Below, piece by piece: positions 28,114 through 30,656 of a DNA stretch of 35,447 nt (position 1 is the stretch's first letter; every line of letters starts with the position of its first letter). A program made the position numbers and the translations under genes. The notes beneath the pieces are model-generated. The model did not search any database, had not been told where the DNA came from, and was given only the letters and a program-made list of their open reading frames with translations. This stretch comes from an uncultured Alphaproteobacteria bacterium (lineage in GTDB: Bacteria; Pseudomonadota; Alphaproteobacteria; CAAHEQ01; UBA3637). The stretch spans positions 1 to 35,447 of the forward strand of contig CASDQF010000029.1 in NCBI GenBank assembly GCA_949282845.1, read 5' to 3'.

Positions 28114-28569
28114 TTATAAAAAAGGGAAGAGTCTTTTCAACAAAGGAAGCTTACGACCAGAAACAATATCATACTTTTCTGGCATAAGCACTTTTACATT
28201 CACTAATAAGTCTTCATAAGAATTCGTTGAATGCATCAAATTAAAAGGTGTCATTTGAGGGTTACCTTCGACATATTGAGCACGCAACTCCTTTTTTATC
28301 CGCGTCGTTTGATTAATGGCATTTTCTCCATAAAGCAAATAAACATCCGTCGGATGTGATAAATAAGTATAAATAAAAATACGTTGCCATGCTTCCGGCA
28401 TTTTGTTCAAAGCTGGTAGATATGTTCGCATCATTGATTCCGTTAACCACATCCGTTTATGATACTTGACCTTTAAAGCTGATTTTTTACATGTATTTAA
28501 AATCAGCTTTTTAAAACCACCCCGATAAACATCAGGCTTCAGAGAAATCAAACTATATTCTTTAGACAT
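28114..28569 (-). CDS. Nucleoside-diphosphate-kinase-like protein
   Basis: 151 residues, close to the NDK length. YSLISLKPDVYRGGF matches the NDK opening with the conserved Lys and Asp (K11, D13). VYLLYGENAINQTTRIKKEL matches the GENAI region, and NLMHSTNSYED carries His113 at the place of the catalytic histidine (usual N.VHGSDS). The rest, including the Kpn loop and GATNP, is strongly diverged, and the end is basic with LLKRLFPFL. It may have altered specificity or be a pseudoenzyme. Its ATG overlaps the stop of the pilin-Hint gene (TAATG), so the two are translationally coupled. Confidence 0.7.
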   Translation of the reverse strand: MSKEYSLISLKPDVYRGGFKKLILNTCKKSALKVKYHKRMWLTESMMRTYLPALNKMPEAWQRIFIYTYLSHPTDVYLLYGENAINQTTRIKKELRAQYVEGNPQMTPFNLMHSTNSYEDLLVNVKVLMPEKYDIVSGRKLPLLKRLFPFL

Positions 28570-30656
28570 TAAGCAACTCTTTTCTTTAACAGAGAACGTT
28601 TATCCAAAGACAATAATCGTAAAGCATAATCTTGAACAGATAAATCACCATGAAAATCCGCATGATCATGATTGATATCTGCCGGTTGTTCTAACAAGCG
28701 CAAACCATCTATCCATTCTTTAGATAACAAAGGAAAATCACGATAAGATAAAATAGGTTCATGATTTTTAACAAATCTCATATCTTTAATTGTATACATA
28801 TTGTTTAACCGACAAGATGTTAAGATCCCATTTGTAAAACAATTTAAATGCTTACTTGTTATCACATTATAGTATTTTACTTTTTCTCGAATGATTTCTT
28901 TACGAACAAGTTTAACTTCCTTTCCGAAGATGTTAAAAGTTGTTGTTCCCAACGGTGTATCTTCCGTCATCGGATAAGTAAAAGCACTGGCTTCTTTATT
29001 AAAAATACGATGCTGATTGATTGTCTTAAGCTCTGAACCATCATCGAAACAAAGCAAATTATAAGCATCAGCTTCTTGTTCCATTTTGATCCACAAAGGA
29101 TAGGCTTCTGCGAAACAACCCTTATCAAAATCCCAGACTTTTAACAAATCCGCATAATCAATCTCTTCTATACTTTTCAAACTTCCGTCTGCCAGAGCCA
29201 CCTGTGTTCCAGCCGCGCAACACCACCAGCAACCTTCTTTGCCAATTGTACCAGAAGGAATAGAATCTAAATTATCAAATGTAAAACGGCACTTTCCTTC
29301 AGCGGTACACCTACCGAGCTTACCTTTCCAGCTATTGCAGAAATCTCCTTCTTGAGAACAATCACTATAAAATGCCCCACTATCACACCAACAAGATCCG
29401 TTTTCACAAGTATAACCCGTTGTTTCTGACTTACCTTGATCACCAGGTCCAGGAGGAACCGTACATCCTGACAAGCAAGCCTTTGTACACGTACCATAGG
29501 TTGTTCCACAAAATTCATCTAAACATACACAAGTTCCGCTTGAAGAACTCGCCACATCACATCCACTGATAACACAAGGAGAACATGTCCCTGAACCATT
29601 ACACAATCCAGTATCATTGTCACACGGTGTCGTTGTAGAAGCATATGTATAAACAGCTGTTCCGTTTTGATTGGTGCAAGCGGTCACACATTCAGTCGGA
29701 ACAAAATTATAACAAGGATTGACAATACATTGCCCGTTACTGCCACAAACTTCATTTGCCGCACATGTCACTTTCTCTGTCACGATACATCCATTACTGT
29801 CTGTTGTTTCAGAAAGACAGCTTGTTGATGTCGGCGGAGGACAAGCTTCACATTGTCCATCACTTCCACATACAGGCTTTGTCCCAGAACAGGAAATTTT
29901 TTCCTTATCAGGACACCCATTTATATATGTCGGTGTTAAACATGTCGTTCCTGTCGGCGGAATACAATCACATCCATTTAAAGACGAATTGACTGTCTGA
30001 TTATCCGCACACGGATGTGCTCCGGTTGAAGAACAATAACAATTAGGTGTATCTCGGCACAATCCATTAATAATTGCTTCCTCTTGCATACAACCATCCG
30101 ATCCCATTACCAATCGCGTACAATCTCCCGCAGAAACATCCGGACAAGTCGGTTCTCCCGGATCTGGTTCTGGGTCAGGATCTGGCGTCGGAGTAAAAGA
30201 AGAATTTAGCCATTTATCATAAGCAAAAGAAAAAACTAAGTTTTGCTCTCCTTCCAAACATGTCTCACTTCCATCCGTTAAAGTCACTGTTTTTAGTGGA
30301 TAAGAAACATCTTTCATCAATTGAAGACAAACTTTTTCAGGAATATCCTGAACAGTTACATCAATACTACCTTTTTTTTGCTCTACACTGAATGTCTTTC
30401 CCGATTGAGGTTTAAAACTGGAGGGAATCGTTTCTGACTTTGTATCCAATAGCAAAAGCGACAATAGTTTTGCATCTTCTAAAACAGCATTGGCTCGTTG
30501 TTTATTCATAACCGTCGAATACCCCACCAATCCTCCGACAGTCACGACTCCTGTAATTGACAAAACACCTATCATCTCTAACATTGTTCGACCAGATACA
30601 CCGGCATACAGCTCTTGCTTGGTTAAATGGCGAATAGTAAACTTTTCTTCTGACAT
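28569..30656 (-). CDS. Pilin-like N-terminus / Cys-rich / Hint domain fusion
   Basis: 695 residues. A prepilin-like segment at 21-50 (SGRTMLEMIGVLSITG and so on) has a possible cleavage after G22 with Glu27 at +5, followed by a helical stalk to about 150. A Pro/Asp linker (156-169) leads to a Cys-rich region (171-460) with CGSxGQC modules. From C479/C480 a Hint domain (hedgehog/intein type) follows: CCAAGTQVALADGSLKSIEE, a His at 549 in TINQHRIF, and FTNGILTS near 607-614. The usual C-terminal His-Asn of a splicing intein is not seen (CRLNN instead), so N-terminal cleavage rather than splicing is more likely. A 75-residue tail with HDHADFHG follows. AAGGGGG precedes the ATG, 9 bases after flhG. 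Confidence 0.8.
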   Translation of the reverse strand: MSEEKFTIRHLTKQELYAGVSGRTMLEMIGVLSITGVVTVGGLVGYSTVMNKQRANAVLEDAKLLSLLLLDTKSETIPSSFKPQSGKTFSVEQKKGSIDVTVQDIPEKVCLQLMKDVSYPLKTVTLTDGSETCLEGEQNLVFSFAYDKWLNSSFTPTPDPDPEPDPGEPTCPDVSAGDCTRLVMGSDGCMQEEAIINGLCRDTPNCYCSSTGAHPCADNQTVNSSLNGCDCIPPTGTTCLTPTYINGCPDKEKISCSGTKPVCGSDGQCEACPPPTSTSCLSETTDSNGCIVTEKVTCAANEVCGSNGQCIVNPCYNFVPTECVTACTNQNGTAVYTYASTTTPCDNDTGLCNGSGTCSPCVISGCDVASSSSGTCVCLDEFCGTTYGTCTKACLSGCTVPPGPGDQGKSETTGYTCENGSCWCDSGAFYSDCSQEGDFCNSWKGKLGRCTAEGKCRFTFDNLDSIPSGTIGKEGCWWCCAAGTQVALADGSLKSIEEIDYADLLKVWDFDKGCFAEAYPLWIKMEQEADAYNLLCFDDGSELKTINQHRIFNKEASAFTYPMTEDTPLGTTTFNIFGKEVKLVRKEIIREKVKYYNVITSKHLNCFTNGILTSCRLNNMYTIKDMRFVKNHEPILSYRDFPLLSKEWIDGLRLLEQPADINHDHADFHGDLSVQDYALRLLSLDKRSLLKKRVA

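Follow-up and report, generated by a model that had tools for sequence, protein, structure and literature searches.

Minor pilins of type IVb pili with a long adhesin part at the C-terminus, such as CofB, TcpB and PilV, combine a pilin N-terminus with large C-terminal domains, and a terminal Hint domain is not known in any of them. According to the accessible part of PMC8616854, BIL2 of Tetrahymena BUBL1 (6Y75/6TMM) sits between two ubiquitin-like domains, ends in Asn143 and reacts to form an isopeptide bond. B-type BILs, as described in the accessible part of PMC7765530, share the motifs of inteins apart from that at the C-terminus, and undergo N-terminal cleavage; neither an extension of ~80 residues nor pilin or fibre partners appear in that part, whereas both are seen in the protein family described here. 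Hedgehog-type proteins have Hint/SRR and Hint/ARR layouts (PMC2362128, accessible part). The S74 autopeptidase is self-detaching and is known both from phage fibres and from giant viruses, although it uses Ser/Lys chemistry (PMC7824862, accessible part) and the domain described here is a Hint domain.

We analysed a window of 35,447 nt, contig CASDQF010000029.1 (assembly GCA_949282845.1), from an uncultured Alphaproteobacteria bacterium (CAAHEQ01; UBA3637), in which one gene joins a pilin-like domain to a Cys-rich region, a Hint domain and a conserved C-terminal extension. The first-pass annotation of this DNA knew of no described system with such an arrangement. Among the papers listed in searches of mainly open-access literature, judged by title or the start of the abstract, we found neither the pilin-Hint fusion nor a family consisting of Hint and extension, nor a covalent thioester adhesin on a pilus. 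However, the Hint domain with its extension is not confined to this protein, as it recurs on viral fibre-like ORFs and on other bacterial pilin-like proteins.

Architecture and neighbourhood of the pilin-Hint gene

The gene, its parts and the ORF downstream of it are arranged as follows:

28569..30656, minus strand: whole gene (pilin-like part, Cys-rich region, Hint domain and extension), 695 aa, from the ORF call, with intact orthologues in G012 (L022/L031) and G011 (L023/L032)
30192..30656, minus strand: residues 1-155, prepilin leader, hydrophobic helix and globular pilin-like domain, from the motif, other copies of the N-terminus and a weak model
30141..30191, minus strand: residues 156-172, Pro/Asp-rich linker, from the sequence
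29223..30140, minus strand: residues 173-478, Cys-rich region, by count 41 Cys in 306 residues
28809..29222, minus strand: residues 479-616, predicted Hint domain with Cys479 at position 1 and His549 as the block-B His, from the alignment, model and profile
28572..28808, minus strand: residues 617-695, conserved C-terminal extension, from the alignment
28114-28569: NDK-like ORF, 151 aa, downstream of the pilin-Hint gene and overlapping its stop codon by one base

The coordinates, strand and length of the ORF agreed with the first-pass annotation, as did the Pro/Asp linker (at about residues 156-172) and the Cys-rich stretch. The fusion is genuine. Both congeners, G012 (L031) and G011 (L032), encode it intact, with 86% and 63% identity and in the same gene order. 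Because these two other MAGs keep both the gene and its order, a chance ORF fusion or a chimeric assembly was ruled out.

A ParA/FlhG-like gene lies 9 bases upstream of the fusion gene in the same direction, and is preceded by genes read as flhF, motA, fliN, fliG and fliF. The pilin-Hint gene adjoins flagellar genes and lies outside the pilus operon, in which respect it differs from the genes of type IVb minor pilins. As for the earlier placement in a flagellar operon, the names of the upstream flagellar genes were read by eye from the translations, and the gene order is kept in the two congeners. On the other side, the NDK-like ORF is followed by secA (by eye). This ORF scored 21.3 bits against the Pfam NDK model, below the cut-off of 27 bits, and contains an NLMH stretch that we take to resemble the NDK active-site motif. 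It is kept in both congeners, and the one-base overlap with the stop of the fusion gene is found in three genomes; no match to it was found beside the gene at L033, L037 and L038, and the L036 contig ends at that point.

The protein begins with the prepilin-like start reported earlier, SGR-TMLEM, with cleavage expected at G22|R23, a hydrophobic helix and Glu27 at +5. Arg at residue +1 is unusual for a prepilin. The same N-terminus matched 19 other places in the genome (20 rows including the gene itself). In Pfam, N_methyl did not match the window protein, and the other copies L003 and L013 scored 16.1 and 18.8 bits against a cut-off of 21.2. The N-terminus of the window protein also gave DUF1256 (E 0.13) and spore_YyaC (E 0.019) matches, which were far under the cut-off and were set aside. 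The best of five models of residues 1-155 had a mean pLDDT of 61, with residues 1-47 under 50, and the other four models had 30-41. A Foldseek search with the best model gave no match under E 0.001, and its first six rows were TCP and other type IVb pilins (E 0.04-0.15). Among the best 13 VIA rows for this weak model, 12 were type IV pilin subunits and one was PilM, with Z from 8.4 to 6.1, where values near 8 fall in the VIA caution zone; the 12 subunits included TcpA and CofA, as well as the minor pilin PilW. Judging from this model, residues 1-155 probably form a type IVb-like pilin domain.

The genome also encodes an A24 prepilin peptidase, and one stretch of contig C47 contains genes for TcpQ, a secretin, a PilO-type accessory protein, a T2SSE ATPase and T2SSF, with a pilin at the contig end, so that the prepilin peptidase, ATPase, platform and secretin of a type IVb pilus system are all present. 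The TcpQ and PilO-type genes are a further feature shared with the type IVb minor pilins. At L134:1-2418, a VirB4-like ORF (CagE_TrbE_VirB) immediately adjoins the type IVb pilus genes, accompanied by small ORFs that appear VirB3/VirB2-like by eye.

The Hint domain, its active site and its extension

The window protein reaches no Hint cut-off in Pfam, where its best match was Hom_end_hint (E 0.17), and no Hint match was found for it in NCBIfam. Two relatives, L024 (G013) and L025 (G031), passed PT-HINT with 31.0 and 29.6 bits (cut-off 27.7). We aligned 50 rows, comprising the window protein, 7 other bacterial rows and 42 viral rows. Of the 55 viral loci, L099, L104 and L105 (broken or partial ORFs) and 10 exact duplicates were dropped; L037, L039 and L052 were left out of the alignment, and L037 was added for the tree. 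The resulting family profile matched BIL2 chains at E 6e-10, with His549 aligned with the His of the BIL2 motif HRFYD, and matched the Umb toxin protein 8w20 at E 5.7e-07.

Structure prediction, proposed earlier as a check, gave a Hint fold. The AlphaFold2 model of residues 470-695, built with the 50-row alignment, had a mean pLDDT of 91.9 and a pTM of 0.88. Its best solved Foldseek matches were BIL2 of Tetrahymena (6y75, E 1.8e-11) and a BIL from Clostridium thermocellum, as well as inteins and Hedgehog (E 3.8e-07), and VIA-align superposed it on BIL2 6y75 with Z 17.6 (rmsd 1.8 A, 141 residues) and on Hedgehog 1at0 with Z 14.7 (rmsd 1.8 A, 133 residues), these rows mostly spanning model residues 7-148 and not covering the extension. 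The PT-HINT scores of the relatives, the family profile and the model together identify the part from Cys479 onwards as a predicted Hint-superfamily fold, in accordance with the domain named in the first-pass annotation. BIL2 is both the nearest solved fold and the best profile match.

Cys479 and His549 are invariant in the alignment (50/50 rows), with the qualification that His549 lies within one of two bacterial search patterns and was thus partly selected for in the 7 non-window bacterial rows, whereas it lies in neither pattern of the viral scan that supplied all 42 viral rows. Asp503 is also found in 50/50 rows, but it lies in the viral-scan search pattern and was discounted as evidence. 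Cys480, previously assigned as the nucleophile, was excluded, as its column varies (L, F, C, V) while that of Cys479 does not. At the place of the splicing His-Asn, the window protein has Ser614-Cys615-Arg616, and S-x-R is found in 40 of the 50 rows. None of the 50 rows has a terminal His-Asn, and Asn without His is found in 10, confirming the missing splicing end reported earlier. An intein was ruled out on these counts, and an A-type BIL, as defined in the accessible part of PMC7765530, was ruled out by the absent His-Asn.

The window Hint is thus a member of the Hint superfamily that is neither an intein nor an A-type BIL and that, judged by the published description, resembles a B-type BIL in its absent C-terminal motif. 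It differs from BIL2 in being followed by the extension only and in having no His-Asn. With the Hedgehog Hog domain it shares the Hint fold near the C-terminal end, a predicted extracellular protein and an additional conserved region after the Hint; the hosts here are bacterial and viral, the extension occupies the position of SRR or ARR, and the protein is Hog-like in layout only. Because a Hint fold is combined with a conserved Cys/His pair and no His-Asn, the predicted chemistry is N-terminal cleavage or transfer rather than splicing, which fits the cleavage-type outcome favoured in the first reading.

The Hint had been regarded as the last part of the protein, but about 80 conserved residues come after it. 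This extension is common to viral and bacterial rows, and Asn619, Lys630, Arg653 and Glu656 are present in all 49 rows that have it, L038 being the row without it.

The conservation of the region after the Hint also bears on a pretoxin-type reading, in which that region would be a toxin released by the Hint and the NDK-like ORF its partner: despite the PT-HINT scores of the G013/G031 Hints, the profile match to the Umb toxin protein and the one-base overlap in three genomes, this is extremely unlikely, because polymorphic toxin tips vary whereas this region is conserved between viral and bacterial rows, the G013/G031 proteins end within about 11 residues after the Hint, and the NDK-like ORF has no match at L033, L037 and L038. 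A polymorphic pretoxin (PT-HINT) was rejected on that conservation.

Between the congeners, the Hint dN/dS was 0.130 (window-G012), 0.065 (window-G011) and 0.076 (G012-G011); dS was saturated in the latter two comparisons. These values indicate that the Hint is under purifying selection. Most other regions with finite dN/dS also had low values (0.10-0.20), so that the Hint is not singled out by this constraint, whereas the Cys-rich part was looser (0.433, window vs G012). These data weigh against the reading that the Hint is an inactive structural remnant of viral origin, retained as a binding domain only. Such a remnant would fit the divergence of the window Hint from the Pfam models and two residues that depart from the common one, Ala487 (Thr in 41/50) and Thr622 (Pro in 40/50); however, with Cys479 and His549 invariant and selection purifying, we consider it very unlikely.

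Bacterial and viral relatives

Among 43 genomes of the same order, 5, including that of the window, had the Hint, and a pilin-type N-terminus is found in each of the five proteins, the G013 ORF running off the contig start but containing GRSMVEM. The PT-HINT-scoring Hints of G013 and G031 are fused to the same pilin N-terminus as the window protein. As observed at L024/L037 (G013) and L025/L038 (G031), they represent a second, divergent Hint type that lacks the extension, ends in SGNR and, by eye, is close to the Hint pieces of the phage-like locus L039.

A scan of genome contigs gave 9 loci, and at 7 of them a pilin-like N-terminus and the Hint are in one ORF: the two congeners, G013/G031 (L037, L038), L033, L035 and L036. 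Prepilin starts were A|FTLAE at L033, G|FTLTE at L035 and A|FTLAE at L036, so that Hint and extension are found on pilin-like proteins in three unrelated bacterial contigs. The pilin-like and Hint ORFs of L034 overlap in different frames and were not counted as a fusion, and at L039 the Hint is spread over two phage-like ORFs. L033-L036 have 46-57% identity to the window Hint and possess the extension, whereas L037/L038 do not. The pair is rare: of 192 genomes sampled from the order to which G043 belongs, counting G043 itself, one had it. In a sample of the class, 25 of 385 genomes matched the family profile, G011, G012 and G031 being absent from these matches, and among the matches listed only that of the window passed profile position 144 into the extension.

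Two IMG/VR scans yielded 9 and 55 viral loci, and the second recovered all of the first (including L044-L051) except L052. In 52 of 52 usable viral ORFs (42 distinct modules, from the 55 loci), the module starts with Cys and continues for 199-232 aa up to the C-terminus. Pfam searches with seven of the viral Hint ORFs detected Laminin_G_3 (two), SprB or YadA_head above the cut-off in four, one of which also had BppL_N just below it (25.7 vs 25.8), and found no fibre or adhesin domain in the other three. When seven neighbouring viral ORFs were compared with PHROG, three matched tail or virion-structural PHROGs and four matched none. These results suggest that Hint and extension end fibre-like proteins of viral contigs, 'fibre-like' being taken from the seven ORFs scanned, and that the viruses carrying them are probably phages. 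At L044, L047 and L048, runs of ORFs that begin with repeats such as GITIGGGISVG adjoin the Hint ORF and look, by eye, like interchangeable tail-fibre modules.

In BFVD, the model was matched best by a protein of Gaeavirus, with 47% identity across 212 aligned columns and a TM of 0.82 by query, a match that has to include part of the extension. Among 50,697 records of named phages, neither the window Hint (E limit 0.01) nor the viral Hint L044 (E limit 0.001) had a match, and a search of 72,556 plasmid records with the window Hint, at an E limit of 0.001, gave none either. PHROG gave no match for the window protein and one match each for the Hint ORFs of L044 and L045 (E 0.07 and 0.057).

In the tree, 5 changes were required for the rows fused to a pilin, taken as 9 of 51 with L034 included despite the different frame of its pilin-like part. 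Bootstrap trees required 3-5, the shuffled mean was 8.3 and none of 500 shuffles was as low, whereas well supported branches force only 1 change. The tree suggests several independent pilin-Hint fusions. A long branch (2.41) separates the G013/G031 Hints from the rest.

Possible roles of the Hint and its extension

We favour the interpretation that the protein belongs to a type IVb pilus as a minor, adhesin-type pilin and carries a C-terminal autoprocessing module of Hint and extension, which on present evidence seems reasonably probable. Prepilin peptidase would cut after G22, and the N-terminal helix would anchor the protein or enter the pilus, with the Cys-rich stalk and the Hint exported. 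Cys479, aided by His549, would then turn the peptide bond 478-479 into a thioester by an N-S acyl shift. Water might subsequently release the pilin/Cys-rich part from Hint and extension; alternatively, that part might be passed to an external nucleophile (an amine, sugar or lipid), which the extension may help to position. The constant last position of the module on fibre-like proteins suits hydrolysis and transfer alike. By analogy, hydrolysis would make the module a self-removing maturation tag, like S74 on phage fibres (PMC7824862, accessible part). Transfer would be Hedgehog-like, with the extension in place of the adduct recognition region (PMC2362128, accessible part), or it could be a BIL2-like isopeptide formation (PMC8616854, accessible part).

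One alternative is that Hint and extension are disposable, helping to fold or trimerise the fibre-like protein and then cutting themselves off to leave a plain carboxylate end, as the S74 autopeptidase of phage tail spikes does. This would account for a module that forms the last 199-232 residues of all 52 usable viral ORFs, four of seven of which carry LamG, SprB or YadA_head domains, but a long conserved extension is needless for simple hydrolysis, and Hint and S74 differ in chemistry and in fold. The spread of the two is similar, S74 being self-detaching in jumbo phages and NCLDVs (PMC7824862, accessible part) and Hint with extension being found on viral contigs and in Gaeavirus. We regard this alternative as possible but unlikely.

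More speculative, and distinctly unlikely at present, is a mobile covalent-attachment module at filament tips. A nucleophile of the target would attack the Hint-held thioester on pilus adhesins or phage tail fibres, joining the filament covalently to the surface as the Hint is shed; bacteria and phages would adhere by a ligation of the Hedgehog type.

For the favoured autoprocessing pilin, the viral and bacterial sequences suggest a possible common way of trimming or chemically attaching pilus and viral fibres. An active module would mean that extracellular filaments of bacteria and of viruses have a self-processing C-terminal domain in common. It would then be simple to test whether Hint chemistry acts in release, in maturation or in covalent attachment beyond inteins, Hedgehog and toxins, and the module would be a new protein-ligation tool. 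The conserved extension provides a bacterial and viral counterpart for asking how Hog-type adduct domains arose.

The pilin N-terminus was also observed with other cargos and in other settings of this genome. The pilin-like protein of 633 aa encoded at L006 (G000:C64) has Cys-rich stretches as well as a module (YWSAKNFC...) present in duplicate, an example of another large C-terminal cargo on the same N-terminus. The motif ORF was not found at the pilin N-terminus loci L002, L015, L017, L018 and L020. Eleven of the 19 other matches are no more than about 450 bases from the end of a contig (G000 contigs C5, C72, C38, C14, C33, C47, C65, C20, C6, C54 and C17), and nine copies of the pilin repeat that were compared shared 81-99% DNA identity over 116-388 bases. 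This multicopy repeat probably breaks the assembly, and it might serve pilin variation.
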